From Candidatus Undinarchaeales archaeon (GTDB lineage Archaea > SpSt-1190 > JASMDC01): a stretch of DNA of 64,000 nt. The notes beneath the pieces are model-generated. The model was not told the DNA's origin. It did no database searches and saw only the letters and a list, made by a program, of their open reading frames with translations. The DNA is taken from positions 1-64,000 of the forward strand of contig JASMDC010000012.1 in NCBI GenBank assembly GCA_030753015.1, read 5' to 3'. This document shows, piece after piece, positions 806 through 39,430 of this stretch (positions are counted from its first letter, which is position 1; each line of letters starts with the position of its first letter). The translations under genes were made by a program, and so were the position numbers.

Positions 806-3800
806 ATGAGCGGGGATGGTCTAGTGCGTGCACGAGCAGGCCTTTTACTCGTCGTTCTTCTCGTCCTGCTCACACCAGTCCAGGCAGGATGCCGTCGTGG
901 CCAGGACTTCAGTGGTGTATCCCAGCAGGTCGAGTACCGCGACGGCAGCATGTGGTGCACTAACCTCTGGTACCGCTATAACAACGGTCACTGGGAGGTG
1001 AAGGGCAAGGGCCTCTCGAGCAGCTACAACGACGTGGGCAGCAGCTTCGTCCGGCGCAAGGAGAGCGGGATGTGTGACATCTACAAGCGTATCACCCGCG
1101 CGCTGCGCAACGCAGACCTCGATGCGGGCGCCCGTGTCCTCTGGAGAACGATGCACGGTGAGGATGGCGACGACGACGTCATCATCTACAACGACTACCG
1201 CGGGAAGGAGATGGAGGTCGACGACGACACGAGCCTCACCGAGGGGGGATTCAGGGGTATCATCGGCCGCAGCCTCAGGGCTTGCCCGAAGCCGACGCCC
1301 ATACCGACCCCGACACCCAAGCCGACCCCGACTCCAACGCCCAAACCGACACCTACTCCTACACCGAAGCCGACGCCCACACCGACACCCCGTCCTCCCG
1401 CACGCCACCGCTTGGCGATCCCAGACGGGTACAACCAAGGAATCCCTCACGATCCCCCGGACGGTGCCGGCGGTGTGTCCCCCGACGACATACGTGGGCT
1501 TGATATAGGTTCTATGACAGCGCCCTCGACCCGACCCGTCCCGCTCGGTGCACCAGAGGTACCGTGCACGGGCCAGACGTACGACAACATGGCTGACTAT
1601 CTTGACGCTATGGCGGCCACCTATGAGGCGCTCGCTATCCACTATACCGCCATCGCCGCCGACCTGATCGTCGTGGAGGACGGATTGGGCCAGCAGTGCG
1701 ATATGTGCTCGAAAGCCCTCGGAAGTGTGAAAGGTCTCGGGTTCGGTCCGTGCGATCCGGCCCTCACGGGCGAGGGCCTCACCGCTGCAGCGGTCGCAGC
1801 GAACACGACGCTCGGTCCGTCCCTCTGCCACAAGGCCGCCGAGCGGAGGTGCGAGCCCCGGGCGCTCAAGGAGTGCCTGCCTGAGGGCGCTGGCGTTACT
1901 GAGGGGCCGATCCCGCTCCCCCCGTCGACGGAGCGGGAGGGCGAAAAGCTCCTCCTCCCCATCCCAGGGATGAAGGAGGATCAGGACAAGAGCTATGCAT
2001 CGGACACGGGAATGGACGCCCACGCTCCCGTGGGCACGCCCATCCAGGCGGTTGCGGACGGGGCCCTCATATACAGCGAGGAGGGGCACACGCCCTGGAA
2101 CCGGCCGCCGGACACCCCCAACACCATCCTCATCAGGCTCGACAAGCCGGTCACCTTCAAGCAGAAGACCTACTATTTCGTCTGGTACGCCCACCTCGCG
2201 AGCCTGGCCTTTGAGGTGAAGGACGGTGGCGAGGAACGGCCCGTCCGTCGGGGCGAGCGGCTCGGTACAACGGGCATCGGGAACAAGGTCCCTCACGTCC
2301 ATTTCGGGATCATCGTCCATCGCAGCCAGGGGCCAGGCCTCTTCATGAAGCCTGAGGACATCCACGAGTACTACTGGGGCACGGCGAGTTCGCCCTCTGC
2401 GGATCGGACGGGAGCTGGTGTCGCAGGTGAGGGATATCCCGCGTGCTGCCTCGACCAGACATTTGACAAGGCAACGAACAAGGTCGTCGAGGAACGATGG
2501 AACGTGTATACCGGTACCGGTCAGTTCCTGGACAAGGACTGCGTCCAGGTCCAGGCGGCGTTCGAGCGGGCGGACCGCTACCATCGCTACACTAAGAAGA
2601 CCCTCGATGAATGCAAGGCGCATTGTGGGAACGCTGATGGTGCCCGCTGCTGTGGGCTCCACTGCTTCGATGGGTTCCGGTGTGACACGTCCAAGTCATA
2701 CCCGTACAAATGTACCGCCGTGGCCACGCCCACACCGGTACCGACCGCAACGCCCACGCCTGCCCCCGGTGCTTCCCCGACGCCGCTCCCCGCCCCTGAA
2801 CCGATCATCGATCCGCTACCCGAGCCCGAGCGCGTCCGCTCGAGCGGTCAGGTAGCGGCCGCTGTACGCTGTCCTCTCTGCGTGGCCGTTCCCTGCGCCT
2901 ATGCTGTGGCCTGCGAAGTGGGCTCACCGTCGTCCGACGACCGGTGCGACACCAGTGGTTCCTGCGGTGACATCGTCCGGGCCGGAGCAGCGACAGGGCT
3001 CCGAGGGGGCTACACATGCACCGCCGATCCCGAGAAGGGCGATCCCTGCTGCATCAAGGAAGGAGCGACCTGTCCGTCCTCGTGCAGCGTGTGCAAGACC
3101 GTGCGGACCTCAGTGGTGACGGCCGGCTCCCGTACGGTGGTGACCCTGCCAACGTCCCTGGCCATGTGCCAGCGCGTCTTTGCCGACCTAAAGGACGCGT
3201 GCACCGTGGACGGCTCCGACGTCATCACCGGCAAGACGCTGGACCCGTGTGCCACTCGGGACCGCGTGACCGTTGTCAGGGAACGGCTCGAGGAGCTCGT
3301 CACCAACCTCGGTACAGCTGCCAGGGAGCTGAGAGCAATGGCCCAGGGCGTGCGGGGCTCGCTCCGCAACGGCGTGCCTCCCGACGGGACGGAAGGTCAG
3401 GTAGAGCGTATGATGGACGCGCTCTCGGGCGAGGGCTGGGACGGTGCGTCCGTGACGGCGTTCCAGCACGACCTCACCAGGATCCTCACCTTAGCCGGTG
3501 GCCCCCTTATCCGGGACGTGGGCGGGGCCATGCCCTCCGCGGGTGCTGGTGGAGCAGGTGCTCCGGGCTCGTGGCGTGACGCTTCCGCACCGTACACGCC
3601 CACAGAGGATACCTGGCGCCGGTCCGAGGTTAGTACTGCTGCCGGAGAGGAGATGAAGCGCGCGGTCGTCCGGTACCGCGGCAGCGACGAATGGGCCACG
3701 TTCTGTGGCCGCTACGCCCAGACAGCTGGGAGGTACCCCGTGGACACCTCGGCCATCGAGTCCAAGGCACCCGGTGTGGGATGTGGGGGCCCCATGGGGC

Positions 3801-6800
3801 GGTGCGAGTCCGCGCTCGAGGCCGGTGGCGAGGTGGCGCTGGGCAACAGTGATCGATGGTCGACAACCCATCTCGAGGCCTTACAGGCCCTGGCCGGTCT
3901 GGACACCAAGAAGCTCTTCATCGACGCGCGGGAATGCTTCAGGTACGCAACGACGGATCCTCCGGACGGTCCGGGGGATTCCGACGATGGAGGTGGGGAA
4001 CTGGCGCCTGGCCAGTGCTCTGAGGGCTGTGCGCTCTGCTTCGGCTCACGGGACTCGCACTGCCACCCCCAGCTCAGCCTGTGCGTGTGCCGCACTGCGA
4101 GCGGTCGACATACCATCGACCTCGGCTGCACACCGGGCCCGGGCGAGGACGACCTGGCGCTCGCTCGTGAGTGCTGTGCAGCGGAGCGGTCCGGACCTTC
4201 GCGGGAGGAGAAGGGGGATGAGGGCCTGCTCGTACTGCGCGAGAGCGCTGTCGGTTCGGACGCCGACCATGCCGTGTGCCAGAGCCCGGCAGAGGCCGCG
4301 AAGGCCACCTTCGACGTGTGCGATAGCAAGAGCTCGCCGACGGGACTGTGCTGCCTCGACGGGCTCAAGGAGAGCCCGGTCGGGAAGGATGAATGCAAGG
4401 AGCGGCTGAACCTCACATGCGAGGAGGAGTGCCTCAGGATCCATGCTGACGACACCCGGGCCGCTCGGCGGTGCGTCCGCAACTGCACGCTCCCCGAAGA
4501 CGGCACCGCACCTGAACCCACGCCCGATGTACCAGCGCCCGATGACGCTGACAACGCGACCCTGGAGTGCAAGCAGGCGTGCCTTCGGGACAACGACGAT
4601 GACGCTACGGCGGCCCTCACCTGCATGCGGGGCTGCGGGGGCGACCTCGCCTGTGAGGACACTTGTTCCAAGGAACGGCCGGACCCCGTGCTCCTCCGGC
4701 CCTGTCTCGAGGCATGTGTCGGCTGGGGTGACGGCTCGGCGAACGTCACATGCGAGGAGGGCTGCATCATCAAGTTCGGGGCCGGTTCTTCCAACGCCAA
4801 GATATGCGTCAGCAGGTGCGGTGAGGTGGACGTGACCTGCGAGGAGCGGTGTCTGCGCGAGGGCGACGAGCTCGCAGTAACAGGGGAAGAGCGGACCACA
4901 TGGATCAGCTCCTGTCTCGTCGGATGCGGGAAGAGCCCCGGGTGCATGGATGTGTGTCGCGAGCGGTTCCCCCTCGACGAGACGGCACGTCGGTCGTGCG
5001 AGGTGGCCTGCGAACCGCCCAACAGCACGGTATCCTGCATCCAGAACTGCACAGCCTCGGGCGGCGACGAGCACGAGTGCGTCCGGCTCTGCAAGGCTCT
5101 GGCCCCCGACGTCACCGTTTCCGGTGTGGCGCTCACGCGTGGAACGACGCCCGCCCGGACCTTCCTCGCCAACGAGACCGTCCGGGTCCATGCCCAGGTG
5201 AACAACACGGGCAACTACACGTTCGCTGGCCGTGCCATCGTCCAGATGCGTATAATCGGCGATTGTGACTGCCCGACCTGCCCTGAGGACTATGCCTGCG
5301 GGTGCACGTGCGAAGAGGAGGTCAGGACCCTCCGCGAGCTATCGGTCCCCAGCCTTGCTCCGGGCAAGGGCATCGCCTATCTGTCCGATCCGGTGACGCT
5401 CGAACCGTCGCTGGCCAACAAGACCGTTCAGCTCCGTGTAGAGGTCGTGGGCCCCGACGCCACGACAGTAGCTATTGGCGAGGGTCCACTGGTGCACATC
5501 GTCGAGATGGGTGACGTTTCGGTCACGCACGCATCGTTCATCGAGACGGCCGAGGGCGCCGAGGTGACCGCAGGGCATCCGGGCATGGACATCTCGGGCA
5601 GGGTACGCTTCTCGACCCGCTTGTTCCCCGTGCTGGTGGAAGCCTACACGATCATCGGCGACAACCAGGAACTGATGGGGACAAGGAACGCTCTGATGGT
5701 CGAGCGACCAGGAGCGACATCCCTTCGATGCGATGGCGGCGATCTCTCACGCCTCGAGAAGAGCGGTCTACGTCGATGTGCTCCCTACCGGGAGTTCGTG
5801 GAACGGGAGCTTGAGATTTTCGACCTCCAGGGACGTATCGATCCGCTGATGGTCATGGCCCTCATGATGCAGGAGTCCTCGTGCAATCCCGACGTGAACT
5901 GCGGAGGTATCATGCAGGTCGACCATCCATGCCGGGTGGAGAAGGACTCCCCGCTATACTGCGCATGCAAGGGCGATGCGGAGCTCGGTATCAACCTCGG
6001 AACGAAGCTCCTGCGCGACCGACTGGACCGCGCCGTGCTCCGGGGTGCTGCCGAGGAGGAGGCGCTCACGTTCGTGCTCTTCGGCTATAACCGCGGGATG
6101 GCGGCCATGGACGATGCCATCAAGAACAGAAAGGCGGGTGCCACGGTGTTCGAGGCCATGATGGGTGCGTGCGAGAAGTGGTACGGACCGGGGACGTCGT
6201 GGGACAATATCGACTATTATTGCCGACGCCAAGGGATGGGCCCCCACTATCCCGAGATCGTGTTCGAGCGGTTCCGGAAGGCCTGCGGTGAGATCGGCGG
6301 TACGGTCACAGAGGGCGGGGGCACCGTCACCGACCTCGAGGTGCTCACCCATCCTCTGTCGCTCACGGATGATCATCTGGGATTGGTGCTCCACCTCGGT
6401 GTACGCCTGAGCGACGGTGGCGGGAGGACGCTCGTAGAGACCGTGCTGGACGAGCAGGGGTTCGATCCCGGTCGGTGCGAGGGACGGGCCATGACGACCT
6501 GGTGCGTCCAGGAACGGGCGAGGGTGCGGCTCGGGTACCCTCAGGCCTACCTGGAGGTGCGTCGGCCTACGGTCCGTATAAAGGAGGCGGCCTTCCTCGA
6601 CGCGGATGGTCTGGCGACGGCACGGGCAGGTGCCGGTGAACAGGTCACCTATGAGATGACGCTCGAGAACCGGGAGCTGGTCCCATTCTCCGGCACCATG
6701 ACGGCAGTGGCCCGGTGGCCCGACGGTACGAACATTACCGGTTCTTCGGTCCACCGCATCGTCGATTCACTGGAGCGCGGTGAGCCTGTCACCCTCGGTT

Positions 6801-7132
6801 CGCTGCCCTTCCCGGCCTTCGCGGACCCGGCCGGGGGCGATGCCATGGCCATCCACGTCACCGTCCGGGACGTAGAGGGTCGGATCTGGCTCGACGAGGA
6901 CGTGGACCCCGCGCTATTCCCATTCTCCACGCTCACACAGCGGGAGGACGAAGAGGATGACGTGGCGGACGGACGGCGGCGCGATATCGAGACCACCTTC
7001 ATCGTCGGCAGCTGCCGGCTCGAGGTGCTCTGCGAGGGTTGCCTGCCCACGTGCGAGCTGCACATCGACCGGGCCACCTGCGGTCTGGTGACCCGCCGAT
7101 GCGGGTGCACCTGTGATACCGGGGGGGGATGA
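806..7132 (+). CDS. Giant secreted multidomain protein: signal peptide, Pro/Thr linkers, M23-like peptidase domain, twin-CX3C repeats, CARDB-like domain, SLT/lytic-transglycosylase-like domain
   Basis: 2108-aa ORF; N-term ARAGLLLVVLLVLLTPVQAG; M23-like GMDAHAPVGTPIQAVADG...YAHL...PHVHFGI; SLT-like MMQESSCNP...GGIMQV...FGYNRG. Confidence 0.9.
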   Translation: MSGDGLVRARAGLLLVVLLVLLTPVQAGCRRGQDFSGVSQQVEYRDGSMWCTNLWYRYNNGHWEVKGKGLSSSYNDVGSSFVRRKESGMCDIYKRITRALRNADLDAGARVLWRTMHGEDGDDDVIIYNDYRGKEMEVDDDTSLTEGGFRGIIGRSLRACPKPTPIPTPTPKPTPTPTPKPTPTPTPKPTPTPTPRPPARHRLAIPDGYNQGIPHDPPDGAGGVSPDDIRGLDIGSMTAPSTRPVPLGAPEVPCTGQTYDNMADYLDAMAATYEALAIHYTAIAADLIVVEDGLGQQCDMCSKALGSVKGLGFGPCDPALTGEGLTAAAVAANTTLGPSLCHKAAERRCEPRALKECLPEGAGVTEGPIPLPPSTEREGEKLLLPIPGMKEDQDKSYASDTGMDAHAPVGTPIQAVADGALIYSEEGHTPWNRPPDTPNTILIRLDKPVTFKQKTYYFVWYAHLASLAFEVKDGGEERPVRRGERLGTTGIGNKVPHVHFGIIVHRSQGPGLFMKPEDIHEYYWGTASSPSADRTGAGVAGEGYPACCLDQTFDKATNKVVEERWNVYTGTGQFLDKDCVQVQAAFERADRYHRYTKKTLDECKAHCGNADGARCCGLHCFDGFRCDTSKSYPYKCTAVATPTPVPTATPTPAPGASPTPLPAPEPIIDPLPEPERVRSSGQVAAAVRCPLCVAVPCAYAVACEVGSPSSDDRCDTSGSCGDIVRAGAATGLRGGYTCTADPEKGDPCCIKEGATCPSSCSVCKTVRTSVVTAGSRTVVTLPTSLAMCQRVFADLKDACTVDGSDVITGKTLDPCATRDRVTVVRERLEELVTNLGTAARELRAMAQGVRGSLRNGVPPDGTEGQVERMMDALSGEGWDGASVTAFQHDLTRILTLAGGPLIRDVGGAMPSAGAGGAGAPGSWRDASAPYTPTEDTWRRSEVSTAAGEEMKRAVVRYRGSDEWATFCGRYAQTAGRYPVDTSAIESKAPGVGCGGPMGRCESALEAGGEVALGNSDRWSTTHLEALQALAGLDTKKLFIDARECFRYATTDPPDGPGDSDDGGGELAPGQCSEGCALCFGSRDSHCHPQLSLCVCRTASGRHTIDLGCTPGPGEDDLALARECCAAERSGPSREEKGDEGLLVLRESAVGSDADHAVCQSPAEAAKATFDVCDSKSSPTGLCCLDGLKESPVGKDECKERLNLTCEEECLRIHADDTRAARRCVRNCTLPEDGTAPEPTPDVPAPDDADNATLECKQACLRDNDDDATAALTCMRGCGGDLACEDTCSKERPDPVLLRPCLEACVGWGDGSANVTCEEGCIIKFGAGSSNAKICVSRCGEVDVTCEERCLREGDELAVTGEERTTWISSCLVGCGKSPGCMDVCRERFPLDETARRSCEVACEPPNSTVSCIQNCTASGGDEHECVRLCKALAPDVTVSGVALTRGTTPARTFLANETVRVHAQVNNTGNYTFAGRAIVQMRIIGDCDCPTCPEDYACGCTCEEEVRTLRELSVPSLAPGKGIAYLSDPVTLEPSLANKTVQLRVEVVGPDATTVAIGEGPLVHIVEMGDVSVTHASFIETAEGAEVTAGHPGMDISGRVRFSTRLFPVLVEAYTIIGDNQELMGTRNALMVERPGATSLRCDGGDLSRLEKSGLRRCAPYREFVERELEIFDLQGRIDPLMVMALMMQESSCNPDVNCGGIMQVDHPCRVEKDSPLYCACKGDAELGINLGTKLLRDRLDRAVLRGAAEEEALTFVLFGYNRGMAAMDDAIKNRKAGATVFEAMMGACEKWYGPGTSWDNIDYYCRRQGMGPHYPEIVFERFRKACGEIGGTVTEGGGTVTDLEVLTHPLSLTDDHLGLVLHLGVRLSDGGGRTLVETVLDEQGFDPGRCEGRAMTTWCVQERARVRLGYPQAYLEVRRPTVRIKEAAFLDADGLATARAGAGEQVTYEMTLENRELVPFSGTMTAVARWPDGTNITGSSVHRIVDSLERGEPVTLGSLPFPAFADPAGGDAMAIHVTVRDVEGRIWLDEDVDPALFPFSTLTQREDEEDDVADGRRRDIETTFIVGSCRLEVLCEGCLPTCELHIDRATCGLVTRRCGCTCDTGGG
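1288..1398 (+). repeat. Pro-Thr low-complexity linker repeat (PTPTPKPTPTPTPKP...)
   Basis: Tandem degenerate ccgacnccnacn units within the giant ORF. Confidence 0.9.
4418..5092 (+). repeat. Seven tandem CX3C-Xn-CX3C units in the giant secreted protein
   Basis: CEEEC-X13-CVRNC; CKQAC-X13-CMRGC; CEDTC-X12-CLEAC; CEEGC-X13-CVSRC; CEERC-X20-CLVGC; CMDVC-X13-CEVAC; CIQNC-X9-CVRLC. Confidence 0.9.
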
Positions 7133-9967
7133 ATGGTGCGTGAAGGTCTCGGGAGCGGACGGGTGGCAGTAGCACTAGTGGCAATGCTGGTCGCGCTCGT
7201 TCACGCCGGTGCTCCTGTCGCGTCGGTGGTCACGGAAAGTGTGGACATCTCATTGTTGGAAGTTCAGGAGGTGGACGTCGTGTTCTCACTGCCTCCCGAG
7301 GACGCTGCCGCTCTCGACGATGCGGACCTCGCGGCCCGGTGCATCACAGCCGTGCCATCGCTCACATGCCGTCCCGAGAGGGACGAGGCCTCGGGGCGCA
7401 TCACGTTCGACGTGTCCGGCGAGCCGGTCTTCGGGCTCGAGGAGCTCACCTGGCGCGAGGGGACCGACGGTACCGTCCTTCGCCTCAAGCTCTCCTTCGA
7501 GTACCGCCCCGTCCAGTTCGCAATGGCACCCGGGCTTCTGGCGGACCGGCGGGACCTCACCATCCGCTATCCGTCCCACCGGGCGGTCGTGGAGGACCTG
7601 CGGGACATGCCCACCTTCTCTACCTTCATCCTCTCCGGCCCCGAGGGAACGCTCGACCTGCCCGACGATGTGGAGGGATGGGCACGTGAGCTTGTCATCG
7701 GCGATGCTCTCCTTCTCCCGCAGCTCCCGGGTGCGCTGTGCGTCGCTGCCGTCGTTCGCGAGGGCGAGCCCCGGCCCGTACTGAACGCTCTCTCGCCGGG
7801 ATGCACGCCCTTCCCACTCTCCACAACGGGGCTGATCGCTGGCGGTGACGCCGAGCTGGTCGTGGTATCGGTCAGGACAGGTGGAGACGATATAGAGCTC
7901 GTCTCGTCGCGCGTCCCCCTCTCCCTCGAGCAGCCGGACATAGTGGTGGCGGTCCGACCGGACGGTGATGTCGTGACCGGGCCCGCTTTCGATGTGGACG
8001 TTCGTGTCGACGGCCCCGTGGACGCGTGCGAGGTCTCGCTGGTGGACCTTGAAGGGAACAGGATGGAGCATCTCTCGCTCACCACCTGCGGCAGGATCAG
8101 GCTGAGCACAGCGAAGCTCGAGCCGGGACGCTATCTGGTACGCGCCAGGGCAACGCGCGGGGATCTCGAAGGTATCGGTACTGCTGTTGTGACCTTCGTC
8201 GCAACCCGGACCGAAGGTGTCGTGTTCACGACCGACAAGGACGTGTACGCGGCAGGCGAGACCGTGTCGGTGTACCCCGAGCGGGAAGGGGACGTATGTG
8301 AGGTGACGATCTCGGACATGGACGGCGCCACCGTGACGCGGACGAGCGCAGGCGGCTGCGCGCCGGCCCAGCTCGCACTGGACGAGGCGCTCGAGCCCGG
8401 CACTTATGAGGTGCGCACCGAGCTGTTCCAAGGAGGTTCCATCGTGGCGACCGGTGTCAAGACCGTCGAGGTCGTCGACTGGCAACCGCGACGGGGTAGC
8501 GTCCACTCCACCCTGTGCTTCGGCGGTTCGTTGCCCGTGCTCGACACCAGCATCCCATGCATCGGCCCGCGCATGATGTGCCATCCGACCTCCGAGTCCA
8601 TCCCGCTCTGTCTGTGCTTCGATGCGGACGGACGCCCCCGTGACGTGTGCGAGTACCGCGATACGTGTGTCCCGGACCAAGGTGCCGACGCCAGTGTATG
8701 CAAACCCCCCCCGTCGACGATGTCCCCCTTCACCGTGATCCGTTCCCGTGGAAGGTGTGTGGCGAAGCGCGGTCTGGAGACGCTCTCCTGCGTCGAGGTG
8801 GGCGAGCTGTGCACGGGTACGTGCGTGTGCCTGGACCCGTCGGACCGTGCTCTCTCTCCCTGCACTGCGGGGCAGGCGTGCACGCTGACAGGCTGCCGTG
8901 ACCCCGCGTTCGTGTTCGAGGTCAAGGGATTCGATCCCATCCACGTGCGCACCGGTGCGGTGGCGGAGGAGGTACAGCTCACCTGGAAGGGGGTCGTGAA
9001 GGTGGGTGAACGTCTGGATGACAAGCGTGTGCGCGAGCAGCTGACCGCGTCCGCCTTCCTGGGCGGTACCGGAGGTACGGCGCCCGAGACGTCGTTCGAC
9101 GCATCCCGTAACGAGTGGACATTCACCTCGGGCTTCACCCACCACCTCGAGCCAGGGCGGTACGACGCCTTCCTCATGCTGAGCGTGGGGGATGATATGC
9201 TCCTCGTGCGCCGGCCCTTCGAGATGTGGTACCCGCTGGAGAAGAGCGAGCTCGACATGGAGGTGGTGTCCGTGAAACCGCGTCGCCTCTCCATAGCGGA
9301 CGTGGAGCAGGGAGCGACCGTCCAGTTGAACGTGCGCATCTCCGATGGTTCGGGCGCTCCCGTGCCCTTCGTACCCGCTTCGGCCATGACCGCGACCGTG
9401 GGCGACGAGGAGGGTGGGGTGCGCGCGGACGTGACCTCTGCCGGGTACGAACGCCACACCGGCCTCTGGACTGTTGTGGTGTACCTCCGGGGCGTTTCGA
9501 CCATGTCCGATCACCTAACCCTGTCGGTAGGCCACCTCGGCCGGACGGGCCAGGCACGGACCCGGCTCGATATCCTCGAGCGCATCCCCCTCTCACTGGA
9601 CATCATCCGGGTGGAGCCGGGGACGCAGGAGGACCCGTTGTTCCTGCTCCTGGCGGGCCTCGGGTTCGACATGGACGTGCTCATGGACCTGGAGGGCGGC
9701 GACCGGATCTCTGCCGACAGCTTCACCGTCATGGTGGGCGACCACGACGTGAGCGAAGCGATATCCTACATCTACAGGACGAGCGTCGGCGTCCGCCTCC
9801 ATCTATCCAGTGCCCGCCTATGCCCCACACCCGACCGCCCCATGCCCCTTGACGTGGTGGTGACCGTCCGGGACGCGACCACCGGCGAGGAAGCGTCCGC
9901 CACGTCCCGCATCAGGCTCTCGGGGAATCCCGGGAACTGGCGGTCGCTAGAGGGGGTGAGCTGCTGA
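7133..9967 (+). CDS. Large secreted protein with repeated Ig/MG2-like beta domains and a Cys-rich segment
   Basis: 944-aa ORF, N-terminal signal peptide; starts directly after the stop of the upstream gene; repeated VxFTTDKDVYAAGETVSV-type segments. Confidence 0.85.
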   Translation: MVREGLGSGRVAVALVAMLVALVHAGAPVASVVTESVDISLLEVQEVDVVFSLPPEDAAALDDADLAARCITAVPSLTCRPERDEASGRITFDVSGEPVFGLEELTWREGTDGTVLRLKLSFEYRPVQFAMAPGLLADRRDLTIRYPSHRAVVEDLRDMPTFSTFILSGPEGTLDLPDDVEGWARELVIGDALLLPQLPGALCVAAVVREGEPRPVLNALSPGCTPFPLSTTGLIAGGDAELVVVSVRTGGDDIELVSSRVPLSLEQPDIVVAVRPDGDVVTGPAFDVDVRVDGPVDACEVSLVDLEGNRMEHLSLTTCGRIRLSTAKLEPGRYLVRARATRGDLEGIGTAVVTFVATRTEGVVFTTDKDVYAAGETVSVYPEREGDVCEVTISDMDGATVTRTSAGGCAPAQLALDEALEPGTYEVRTELFQGGSIVATGVKTVEVVDWQPRRGSVHSTLCFGGSLPVLDTSIPCIGPRMMCHPTSESIPLCLCFDADGRPRDVCEYRDTCVPDQGADASVCKPPPSTMSPFTVIRSRGRCVAKRGLETLSCVEVGELCTGTCVCLDPSDRALSPCTAGQACTLTGCRDPAFVFEVKGFDPIHVRTGAVAEEVQLTWKGVVKVGERLDDKRVREQLTASAFLGGTGGTAPETSFDASRNEWTFTSGFTHHLEPGRYDAFLMLSVGDDMLLVRRPFEMWYPLEKSELDMEVVSVKPRRLSIADVEQGATVQLNVRISDGSGAPVPFVPASAMTATVGDEEGGVRADVTSAGYERHTGLWTVVVYLRGVSTMSDHLTLSVGHLGRTGQARTRLDILERIPLSLDIIRVEPGTQEDPLFLLLAGLGFDMDVLMDLEGGDRISADSFTVMVGDHDVSEAISYIYRTSVGVRLHLSSARLCPTPDRPMPLDVVVTVRDATTGEEASATSRIRLSGNPGNWRSLEGVSC

Positions 9968-11802
9968 TGCGCGCGCGACCGTGGACAGGCATCGGCCGGC
10001 GACGAGGCCAGGTCAGCCATATCGCCCTCCTCGGCATATCCTTGGCCGTGCTGATCATCGTGTTCCTCTTCCTCCGCTGGGGACGAGCGGAGCGCCAAGC
10101 GCGGACCATCGCCAGGGCAGGGACCGCGGCCGTGGACGATGCGCGGGACCTCGCTGAGATCGTGGAGAGCGCCCTGCGCGATGCCGTGGAGGAGGCGACC
10201 TACGAGCTCGGCCGCCATGGCGGCTATACTGCCGCGACCCTCCCGGGACCGACTGTCGGTGAGCGTCCCGTGTTCTTCCTCGGTGGACGGATGATACTCT
10301 TCCCGTCGGTTCGTGTCATGGAACAGCTGTTGGGACAAGAGGCGACCCGACGGTTGGGAGCACGGCTCGATGCTGTGCGCGCGGACGCGAACGGCACAAT
10401 CTCGTTCGGCGCCCCGCTGGTCACTGTCAAACTCAATGAGAACTCGGTGGAAGCGTCGCTGGAGCTGACCTACACATTGAACGCCGAGGGGGGGACCGCA
10501 CGCTCCGTGGAGGATATGAGCGTCGTCCTCGATCTCAGGCTGCGGGCCCTCTGGTCACGGGCGAAGGCCTATCTCGAGGCCTATGCGCGGGAGCGGTACA
10601 TGGAGCGGTCATTGCTGTCCGGTATAATCAACGACGAGCGCATCCCGAGCCCACCGGGGGGGCCGGGCGAGACCATGTCGTGCAGAAAGCGGAAGGTCCT
10701 GGCGACCGGGGGCGGGATGGCAGAACCCTTCTCGGAGAACGCCAGACTGTCCGTGGCCCGGGAGCTCCAACGGATACGCGAGGCCGCCGCCGACGAACGC
10801 GAGATCGAGTGGTCCATGCGCCTGACCTCGGAACGTGTCAACATGACCTTCCTGGCCAATCCTGGCACGCCCCTGAAGAGCAACGATACGATCGAGTACA
10901 TAGCAGTTCCCATCCCCTTCATCGACCGGCGTGGCGACGTAGATCCCATGTGCCTCAGCCGCTACAACGTGAGCTACACCGTCCGGTACCCCGTGATGAT
11001 GACCGTACGTGACCTCCGACCGGCGGCACGGGGCGCCCGGACCGGTGGGAGGCCGCTGGAGTTCGTGTTCGTGCTTGAGCCGTTCATGGCGGGCATCGAT
11101 CCCTTCGCCCGGCTCGGCGAGCTCTTCCCGCCCTCGGTGGATGACCTGTGCGCACCGTCCGGCCAATGCGAGATGGAACTGGCGGTCACCGGGCCGAACG
11201 ACATGCCCGTGGACGGCCGGGCGTGGCTGGACACGTGCGTGTACGGTTTCGAGAAGGGCAAGCTCGAACGGACACCGGTCCCCTGCGGTGAGCGGACCCT
11301 CATCGTCGAGGCATTGCTCCCACCAGGGCTCGGCCGATATGTGGAGCGTGTGGAGGTTGACGGGCTCCTCTCCCGTCGCATCCAGCTAGGCGCGCGTGGA
11401 AGGGTTCACGGCAGGGTGTACGTCAACGACCGGGTATGGTGCGCAGAGACGAAACGGGTGAAGGCCGAGAGCGAGCGAGCGCTCGGTTTCGTGGAGGGCG
11501 TCCCGCCGCGCGCCGTCCGCCTCCATCTCGTCCCCCTGGACGGAACCCTGGCGCTCGAGCTGTCCGCGGTCGCTGACGAGGAAGCACTGTACACCTTCCC
11601 CGAGGTGGACGCAGGTACGTACATGTTGCTGGCCCTCCCATCGACCGATGCCGCTAACCGGCCGGCATACAAGGTACGCTCCCGTGGCCTGGTCGTGACC
11701 GTGGGAATCGGGGACCTCGAGGTGCCCGTGGAGATGTACCCCCTCATCCCGGTCCACACGAGCAGGGGTTACGAGTACGTGACCCGGGTCGAGGACTGCT
11801 GA
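9967..11802 (+). CDS. Membrane-anchored extracellular protein (single N-terminal TM, C-terminal beta domains)
   Basis: 611-aa ORF; N-terminus RRRGQVSHIALLGISLAVLIIVFLFLRW; overlaps the end of the preceding gene. Confidence 0.85.
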   Translation: MRARPWTGIGRRRGQVSHIALLGISLAVLIIVFLFLRWGRAERQARTIARAGTAAVDDARDLAEIVESALRDAVEEATYELGRHGGYTAATLPGPTVGERPVFFLGGRMILFPSVRVMEQLLGQEATRRLGARLDAVRADANGTISFGAPLVTVKLNENSVEASLELTYTLNAEGGTARSVEDMSVVLDLRLRALWSRAKAYLEAYARERYMERSLLSGIINDERIPSPPGGPGETMSCRKRKVLATGGGMAEPFSENARLSVARELQRIREAAADEREIEWSMRLTSERVNMTFLANPGTPLKSNDTIEYIAVPIPFIDRRGDVDPMCLSRYNVSYTVRYPVMMTVRDLRPAARGARTGGRPLEFVFVLEPFMAGIDPFARLGELFPPSVDDLCAPSGQCEMELAVTGPNDMPVDGRAWLDTCVYGFEKGKLERTPVPCGERTLIVEALLPPGLGRYVERVEVDGLLSRRIQLGARGRVHGRVYVNDRVWCAETKRVKAESERALGFVEGVPPRAVRLHLVPLDGTLALELSAVADEEALYTFPEVDAGTYMLLALPSTDAANRPAYKVRSRGLVVTVGIGDLEVPVEMYPLIPVHTSRGYEYVTRVEDC

Positions 11803-29826: not shown

Positions 29827-31803
29827 TCACTTGGAGCCCCTGCGCCAGAAGAAGCGGTACGCGCCGTACAGGCCGCCGACGAATACCAAGAGACCCGTCA
29901 CTATACCGATGACAGCTCCGGTCCCCATGGTGAACTCGAGCCCTAGGCGCTTGATGTCCTCTGCCCCGTAGATGGTCAGTTCGATATTCTCCGTCTTGGT
30001 GTAGATCTTCCGACTGGAGTCCTGATATTCTACGGTCACGGGGAACTCCAGGTTCCCGGGTGCGGCATCGGCATTGACCTTGAGCTCGAACTCCGCCGTC
30101 TCGAAGTCGTCGGAGTCCATCTTGCCCACGTAGATTCGGTCCGAGGACAGGACCTCCAGAGCGTCGGTGGGGGCCACCGAGACCGTCAGGAACTTGATGT
30201 TCTCTGTGCCCTTGTTCACGAAGTTCAGGGTCACGGTCCCCTTCTGTCCCGCCTTGTAAAGGGGCGACTTCTCAAGTCCGATCTGGAGGCGCGGGACCTC
30301 GCCCGTGAGCTCGCCTATGGGATCGCCAGCCAAGTAGAGCCGGAGCAGTGTGTGCTTCTCCTCGGTATACTCGTGGTTCTGGGTGTCGCTGAATCTCAGC
30401 TGGAGTTCGAGGTCAGAGGTTGCCGCAGCGAACACCTCGGGCACGTGGATTGTGTAGGTGAGGGTGGCCTTTGCGTTGGCCGCAAGGCTCTCCACGAACG
30501 TCGTGGGCGAGGAGAGCACCTTCACTCTCTTGGGTACCAGTAGCTGGGCCACCACGGACCGGGCCTCCTCGGCGCCCACGTTGAGCAGCTCGATGGACAC
30601 GTCCTGGGTGGTCCCCTTCTTGAACAGGTCGGGGGCAGCCACCCGCAGGTCCAGGTCGGGCTTCGAACCCACCACGAGGGTGAGGATGCTCATGCGGGTG
30701 AAGCGTTCGCCCAAGCTGTCCAGGTAGGAGATGCCTACTGGGACCTTGTAGATACCAGGAGCGGCGGTTCCTGCCGCCGACAGGTCGAACTGCACGGTGC
30801 CCTCGGTACCTGGAGCAAGGCTGTCCAGTACCCGTTCTGCCGACGACTGGCTTGTTGCGAAGGGGAGGGTCTCTGACGAGAGGACCAGGCCAACGGTGAT
30901 GCTCCGCAGGGGCACGTCCGAGGCGCTCTTCAAGGTGAGGTAGACGCTGGCGTCCCCGCCGGGCGGGATGCGCACGGGATCGGTTGTCGTACCTGCAACG
31001 AGCAGGTCGCGTCCGACCGCCTTGCGCACGTTCAACGCGAGCTCGAGGCTCTTTGTAGCCGTTGCGCCTTTGCTCTTGTAGGTGAGGGTGAGCGGAAGGA
31101 TATAGATACCGTCCGCACCGTCACCGATCCCCAGGGAGATGTACACCTTCTTCGCGGATCGGGGGCCCATATCCCCCAGCCATCGGCTGTTACCGGTACT
31201 TAGGAGATAGAAGAGGCTGGAGTCCGTGGATCCCTTGGGCGTGGTGCTGATGTCCAGCTGAACGTCCTGGGCCTTCCCAAGGCCCGAGTTCTCGAGGGTA
31301 AGGGCTGCAGTGACGGTCCCGCCCGGTACGAGGTGCTCGGGTTCAAGGACAATCTCTTTGAGCGTGAAGTCCGCTCCGGACTCCACGTCGATGCTCACCT
31401 TATTGACTGTCACTTCCTCGCCCTCGGCGCACGTGTCGGGGCAAGCGGCTATCTCAAGCTCATATGTGTCCTCCGGCGCGTCCTCGGCCACGATGACATA
31501 GAACTTGCGGTACACTTCCGTCTTGGGTGCGAGACTGCCGATATGGAACGATTCGCTCTCACCCGGTTTCAGGCTGAACGGGTACTTGGGCCGCACCTCA
31601 AGCACAAGATCGGACGCTGTGTTCTGTGCGTAGTTGTCCACCTTGATGCTCACCTCCACCTGGCGCCCGGGCTCGGCAGGGGCCGGGTCATAGCTCAATC
31701 CGAGCACGCGGATGTTCGGCTCCGTCGGGAGGAAGTCGGCCCCGGCCGAAAGGGCTAGAATCAGGGCGCATACGATACCGGCTACGATCTTCTTGTCAGT
31801 CAT
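29827..31803 (-). CDS. Secreted CARDB/NEW3-like multidomain protein with C-terminal TM anchor
   Basis: 658 aa; signal peptide; repeated Ig-like segments; C-terminal TM followed by RRGSK. Confidence 0.85.
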   Translation of the reverse strand: MTDKKIVAGIVCALILALSAGADFLPTEPNIRVLGLSYDPAPAEPGRQVEVSIKVDNYAQNTASDLVLEVRPKYPFSLKPGESESFHIGSLAPKTEVYRKFYVIVAEDAPEDTYELEIAACPDTCAEGEEVTVNKVSIDVESGADFTLKEIVLEPEHLVPGGTVTAALTLENSGLGKAQDVQLDISTTPKGSTDSSLFYLLSTGNSRWLGDMGPRSAKKVYISLGIGDGADGIYILPLTLTYKSKGATATKSLELALNVRKAVGRDLLVAGTTTDPVRIPPGGDASVYLTLKSASDVPLRSITVGLVLSSETLPFATSQSSAERVLDSLAPGTEGTVQFDLSAAGTAAPGIYKVPVGISYLDSLGERFTRMSILTLVVGSKPDLDLRVAAPDLFKKGTTQDVSIELLNVGAEEARSVVAQLLVPKRVKVLSSPTTFVESLAANAKATLTYTIHVPEVFAAATSDLELQLRFSDTQNHEYTEEKHTLLRLYLAGDPIGELTGEVPRLQIGLEKSPLYKAGQKGTVTLNFVNKGTENIKFLTVSVAPTDALEVLSSDRIYVGKMDSDDFETAEFELKVNADAAPGNLEFPVTVEYQDSSRKIYTKTENIELTIYGAEDIKRLGLEFTMGTGAVIGIVTGLLVFVGGLYGAYRFFWRRGSK

Positions 31804-39277: not shown

Positions 39278-39371
39278 GGGGACATAGTGTAGCTAGGCAG
39301 CACGGTGGGCTCCAGAATCCATTCACGGCTGTGGAAACCCGCAAACTAGGGTTCAAATCCCTATGTCCCCA
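39278..39371 (+). tRNA. tRNA-Trp (CCA) containing a ~21-nt archaeal intron
   Basis: GGGGACA/TGTCCCC acceptor, GTGGG/CCCGC anticodon stem, anticodon CCA, expanded loop CTCCAGAATCCATTCACGGCTGTGGAAA; T arm TAGGG-TTCAAAT-CCCTA. Confidence 0.88.
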
Positions 39372-39430
39372 CTCCTTCACCCTTCCCTGTCCGAACACTT
39401 TTTAACGCTTCAGGCTTTCGTCCAGCGCCC

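Follow-up and report, generated by a model that had tools for sequence, protein, structure and literature searches.

Giant secreted proteins with bacterial-wall-type hydrolase modules and a repeated pilin-like partner cassette in an archaeal genome

Introduction

Why would an archaeon secrete a very large protein that combines two enzyme folds of the bacterial cell-wall type? The question is raised by an open reading frame at positions 806-7132 (+), encoding a product of 2108 amino acids (aa), in a 64-kb window, which is the whole stretch of DNA analysed here (positions 1-64000 of contig JASMDC010000012.1, or C21, in the Candidatus Undinarchaeales genome GCA_030753015.1, labelled G000). SLT enzymes cut the glycan strand of peptidoglycan, whereas M23 and NlpC/P60 enzymes cut its peptides. 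A preliminary description of the locus had noted M23-like and lysozyme-like segments in a secreted protein and offered three options for their role, namely action on bacterial neighbours, remodelling of the host's own surface, or use as binders. The protein belongs to a set of about twenty giant secreted proteins assembled from interchangeable parts, and the first of these options is the likely one for members carrying wall-cutting modules.

A lysozyme-like module and an M23 domain in one secreted protein

The SLT/goose-lysozyme-like module occupies aa 1639-1838 (5720-6319, +). Within it, the SLT family (PF01464) was matched by Pfam at aa 1676-1778 with 21.9 bits against a cut-off of 21.3 (E = 1.4e-4), and 27.8 bits were reached in the genome search; a six-frame search placed the domain at nt 5831-6139. 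As the Pfam score lay barely above the cut-off, the module was tested further. It recurs in two paralogues of the same genome with 53-61% identity and all three motifs kept, the copy on contig C41 scoring only 14 bits in Pfam. The catalytic residue Glu1690 (codon 5873-5875) and the motifs GGIMQV (1700-1705) and FGYNRG (1759-1764) stand exactly where the preliminary description had placed them, and are invariant in all three copies together with ten cysteines. A single catalytic glutamate combined with GLMQ-like and AYNAG-like motifs is the signature by which SLT membership is recognised.

Structure prediction had been suggested as a check of this lysozyme-like segment, given as ~5.75-6.3 kb, and its outcome agrees with the Pfam match and the paralogues. 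The AlphaFold2 model of the module had a predicted local distance difference test (pLDDT) score of 81.2 and a predicted template modelling score of 0.82. The top 25 Foldseek matches in the PDB were all g-type lysozymes or the lytic transglycosylases MltE, MltF and MltC, the best being 4g9s, 3mgw, 153l, MltF and MltE. Foldseek probabilities were mostly at least 0.9 and 1.00 for the first matches, with E-values of only 0.01-0.8 (best 0.013). A search of the PDB by sequence with the SLT profile gave no meaningful match. On the basis of the model, a lysozyme fold can be predicted with confidence.

The M23 domain (PF01551) was identified at aa 401-505 (2006-2320, +; the same interval in the six-frame search) with 37.1 bits against a cut-off of 28.7 (E = 3.8e-9). 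The M23-like segment described at ~1.98-2.35 kb was therefore borne out as a domain, though not with a fully canonical metal site. In an alignment with zoocin A, Asp400 of the sequence SDTGMD occupies the position of the first zinc-ligand histidine, at which the C41 paralogue reads HRGID. Asp404, His463 and His497-x-His499 are kept, so that the full ligand set HxxxD...HxH plus catalytic histidine is broken at its first histidine only. Because Asp400 stands for this zinc ligand, the catalytic activity of this M23 copy appears doubtful; aspartate is able to bind zinc. The search with the M23 sequence listed DipM and EnvC as relatives, which are degenerate M23 domains with a non-enzymatic role.

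Both domains thus exceed their curated Pfam cut-offs, and the protein as described, secreted and carrying the two segments, holds. Hydropathy and sequence indicated an N-terminal Sec-type signal with a hydrophobic core at aa 5-23 (806-886, +), and hydropathy found no internal or C-terminal transmembrane segment after it. The chain contains 5.1% cysteine. A Thr-Pro-rich linker at aa 160-197 (1283-1396, +) was recognised from sequence and a weak low-complexity match, and the protein ends in a conserved C-terminal module with a Cys-rich tip at aa 1844-2103 (6335-7114, +).

A family of giant proteins with shuffled modules

The preliminary description had treated the 2108-aa product as a single protein and missed both its paralogues and a repeated gene cassette. 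Searched against its own genome, the protein gave 59 matches over many contigs. With a profile of the C-terminal module, 17 strong matches (230-330 bits) were obtained besides several weaker ones, and almost all of them fall in open frames of 1067-3145 aa. Most giants of this group have a single N-terminal signal and lack a membrane segment at the C-terminus. The family comprises about twenty giant secreted proteins, at least 17 of which share the Cys-rich C-terminus.

Six giants carry wall-hydrolase modules (M23, SLT, NlpC/P60) in shuffled orders. In the window giant, M23 is followed by SLT near the C-terminus, while in giant A (C41, 1887 aa) SLT comes directly after M23, and giant B (C20, 2153 aa) has SLT, M23 and NlpC/P60 on one chain. 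Two neighbouring giants on C53 contain M23 plus NlpC/P60 and NlpC/P60 alone, respectively, and a giant on C46 contains NlpC/P60. Profile searches of the genome found four M23, four NlpC/P60 and three SLT domains, all inside giants, and no copy of any of the three outside them. The SLT module lies at aa 1639-1838 of the window giant and at aa 395-594 and 27-238 of the other two; these different positions indicate domain shuffling on a common scaffold.

The active sites of the paralogues were also compared. The M23 ligands are complete in the C20 and C41 giants, and all three M23 copies other than that of the window giant look intact as far as sequence can tell. In giant B, M23 scored 119 bits with all ligands and NlpC/P60 scored 68 bits with the cysteine of DCSSL. 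The pattern DC[SG] with a downstream histidine was present in all three NlpC/P60 copies examined by sequence.

Further modules in sister giants include Kazal, FG-GAP and C-type lectin domains, another giant has a Laminin_G_3 match, and many giants have no recognised domain. A second set of giant secreted proteins, very rich in cysteine (7-10%), was observed at L005:7591-13689, L033:7793-14998, L038, L039 and L089; these lack most or all of the C-terminal module, and some adjoin the partner genes described below.

Partner genes and the repeated cassette

Two genes lie directly 3' of the giant gene, with junctions of 0 and -1 bp. The first (7133-9967, +), characterised by family search and hydropathy, encodes a secreted Cys-containing protein of 944 aa. 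The second (9967-11802, +), characterised by alignment and a structural model, encodes a 611-aa protein whose N-terminus has RRGQ followed by a hydrophobic stretch. Across the genome there are 19 full or nearly full copies and two partial copies of the 944-aa family and about 20 copies of the 611-aa family, and the two are adjacent at 19 loci. Gene junctions at eight measured loci ranged from -34 to +58 bp. One to three same-strand giants are also present at many, but not all, of these loci, and the cassettes are spread over about 15 contigs.

In all seven aligned copies of the 611-aa family, Arg13 and Gln15 are invariant, position 14 is Gly or Ala, and a hydrophobic run follows. This N-terminus is like an archaeal class III or prepilin-type signal. 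The model of the 611-aa protein (pLDDT 77.5) consists of a long N-terminal helix (aa 13-83) and stacked beta domains. Its fold matches were pilins, adhesins and the S-layer protein SlaB, with low template modelling scores, so that only a general stalk-like character is taken from them.

Several further arrangements were seen around the cassettes. In a 2640-aa giant (L032:915-8837), one stretch is homologous to the 611-aa partner over the latter's residues 42-464; this natural fusion of cassette components links the giant and 611-aa families. Contig C22 bears two more full cassettes (L070:5977-14088 and L069:8357-16735) with giants of 2703 and 2792 aa, the latter with TSP3-like calcium-binding repeats. 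Beside the C41 cassette lies a tandem of about five related-looking low-Cys proteins of 470-515 aa with an early membrane segment (L007:11322-18623), and proteins of similar appearance occur near other cassettes.

Genome and distribution

The genome has 3.85 Mb in 117 contigs and is the sole one of its order among the genomes examined, whereas the nine other genomes of the ten-genome phylum measure 0.6-1.1 Mb. No archaeal 16S was found in a search of this metagenome-assembled genome. A survey of related archaeal genomes, proposed in the preliminary description, detected neither the C-terminal module nor the 944-aa or 611-aa families in the nine others at E<=0.001, and found an M23 domain in two of them. 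In G001, a genome of the same class, a 2287-aa protein (G001:C17:48000-67999, L079, 3077-9940) has an N-terminal membrane segment and a C-terminal M23 domain (59 bits), and adjoins two small proteins with class III-like signals. The region after its membrane segment weakly matches the 611-aa partner (E = 2e-4, probability 46%). A lysozyme/SLT-like stretch suspected by eye in the same protein was not confirmed by profile comparison. The SLT module had no relatives among public genome contigs, a search from which its own genome was possibly excluded.

Elsewhere in the window, ARAGORN reported a transfer RNA at 39278-39372 with an unresolved 4-base anticodon (ccag), which Rfam also scores as transfer RNA, and a 658-aa protein (29827-31803) weakly matches the putative S-layer family NF033506 below its cut-off.

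Probable target of the giants

Three unrelated classes of peptidoglycan hydrolase occur repeatedly in one secreted family, with up to three on a single chain, and bacterial peptidoglycan is therefore the probable substrate. We consider it likely that the proteins are surface-displayed, disulfide-rich modular giants whose interchangeable wall-cutting modules act on the peptidoglycan of neighbouring bacteria. The giant is encoded in one operon with the 944-aa secreted partner and the membrane-anchored, pilin-like stalk protein of 611 aa, and these partners probably hold or assemble it on the surface of the archaeal cell. In that position, glycan strands of the neighbour's wall would be cut by the SLT domain, and the M23 domain would either cleave the peptide cross-links or only bind them; in the 2108-aa giant its activity may be weak or absent. 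Breaching, killing or feeding on bacteria is the likely purpose. The paralogues, the lectin, laminin-G-like, FG-GAP and Kazal modules and the pilin-like partner fit the host-interaction or predation context suggested earlier, which we still infer rather than observe.

Several observations weigh against this reading. The M23 domain of the 2108-aa giant lacks one canonical zinc ligand. The known peptidoglycan-binding domains LysM and PG_binding_1 were not found in the giants scanned, nor was any Pfam wall-binding domain in the 2108-aa giant. Furthermore, no wall-cutting domain is recognised in about two thirds of the giants with the C-terminal module, which means that the family as a whole cannot have wall cutting as its role.

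One alternative is that the archaeon's own surface is the target, the domains serving in autolysis or remodelling of S-layer glycans or a murein-like layer. In its favour, the giants are secreted and present in many copies, investment in the cell surface is evident in this organism, and M23 and SLT folds are capable in principle of cleaving peptide or sugar bonds of other kinds (PMC12352652). Nevertheless, just two of the surveyed archaeal peptidoglycan hydrolases come from pseudomurein makers (PMC12352652), and the convergence of three different classes on peptidoglycan in one protein also speaks against own-surface action. A search of the genome for the Mur_ligase_M domain, with a control that was positive in 12 of 14 genomes, was negative, and neither peptidoglycan nor pseudomurein is thus expected by known pathways. 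Because of this absence, remodelling of an own peptidoglycan-like wall is disfavoured, and we regard own-surface action as unlikely.

It is also conceivable that the folds are kept only as binders, in which case the giants would be adhesins that attach to bacterial walls and leave them uncut. The replacement of a zinc histidine by Asp400, the existence of degenerate M23 domains such as those of DipM and EnvC, and the lectin and FG-GAP modules of sister giants are consistent with such a role. However, the SLT glutamate is present in every copy, no M23 ligand is missing from the C20 and C41 giants, and the cysteine and histidine are retained in all three NlpC/P60 sequences examined, which makes pure binding improbable for the family as a whole, although the M23 domain of the 2108-aa giant may itself act only as a binder.

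A binning artefact or foreign element, with the genes derived from a contaminating bacterium, virus or provirus, is very improbable: the estimated contamination is 5.01%, the genome is far larger than those of its phylum relatives and the cassette has a guanine-cytosine content of 0.66 against 0.59 in the remainder of the window, but the cassettes lie on many contigs, the window contig carries an archaeal Pus10 equivalog (293 bits, cut-off 200), an archaeal-type LonB (891 bits, cut-off 517) is encoded on a further contig with a cassette, the 611-aa partner bears the archaeal-type class III-like signal, and no relatives were found among IMG/VR viral contigs or phage records.

Returning to action on bacterial walls, a broader proposal can be put forward tentatively. 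This large-genome archaeon, alone in its order, may possess some 20 pilin-coupled cassettes with which exchangeable giant effectors are displayed at its surface, some with two or three wall hydrolases per chain and others with lectin-type recognition modules, as a modular apparatus for predation or bacterial feeding unlike any described in archaea. The genome offers a multi-copy system with a defined operon, testable modules and, by sequence, intact active sites in several members, and suggests that large toolkits against bacterial walls exist in some archaea besides the known pseudomurein makers.

Comparison with known systems

Little is established about the ways in which archaea antagonise or consume bacteria, and it was not until 2025 that bacteria-killing peptidoglycan hydrolases of archaea were described. 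As a class, archaeal peptidoglycan hydrolases are encoded by nearly 5% of archaeal genomes, and bacterial killing is known for at least one of them (Strock et al. 2025, PMC12352652). Like the giants, Woldo and Danwoldo of Halogranum salarium are secreted by an archaeon and carry a hydrolase domain of bacterial type (an M23 related to zoocin A), and in both cases the producer is not expected to have the corresponding wall. In contrast to those proteins (PMC12352652), the hydrolase giants are 1900-2250 aa long, Cys-rich and without recognised peptidoglycan-binding domains, combine up to three hydrolase classes per chain, belong to a repeated three-gene cassette, and, among the genomes searched, are confined to this one.

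Lytic murein transglycosylases of family GH23 in metagenome-assembled genomes of Woesearchaeota have been read as a means of attack on bacterial walls (Vigneron et al. 2022, PMC9723730). They share with the present case a GH23-type gene in archaea, whereas here the SLT domain, rich in disulfides, is a module that changes place within a giant scaffold and is combined with M23 or NlpC/P60. The SPEARE proteins of Nanohaloarchaeota (PMC6642349) are likewise very long surface-associated archaeal proteins that combine enzyme and adhesion domains. SPEARE chains bear a transmembrane anchor along with domains of protease and restriction type, while the giants have bacterial-wall hydrolases, separate partner genes and no anchor of their own; the 2108-aa giant also has no type III restriction-like Pfam domain. 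With goose-type lysozyme and the SLT (GH23) domains of MltE and MltF, the module shares the fold, the catalytic glutamate and GGIMQ-like and YN.G-like motifs, but it differs in its ten invariant cysteines and in having no meaningful sequence relative in the PDB or the collections scanned. Archaeal peptidoglycan hydrolases as such are therefore already known, and what is new is the giant, shuffled, multi-copy architecture together with its cassette.
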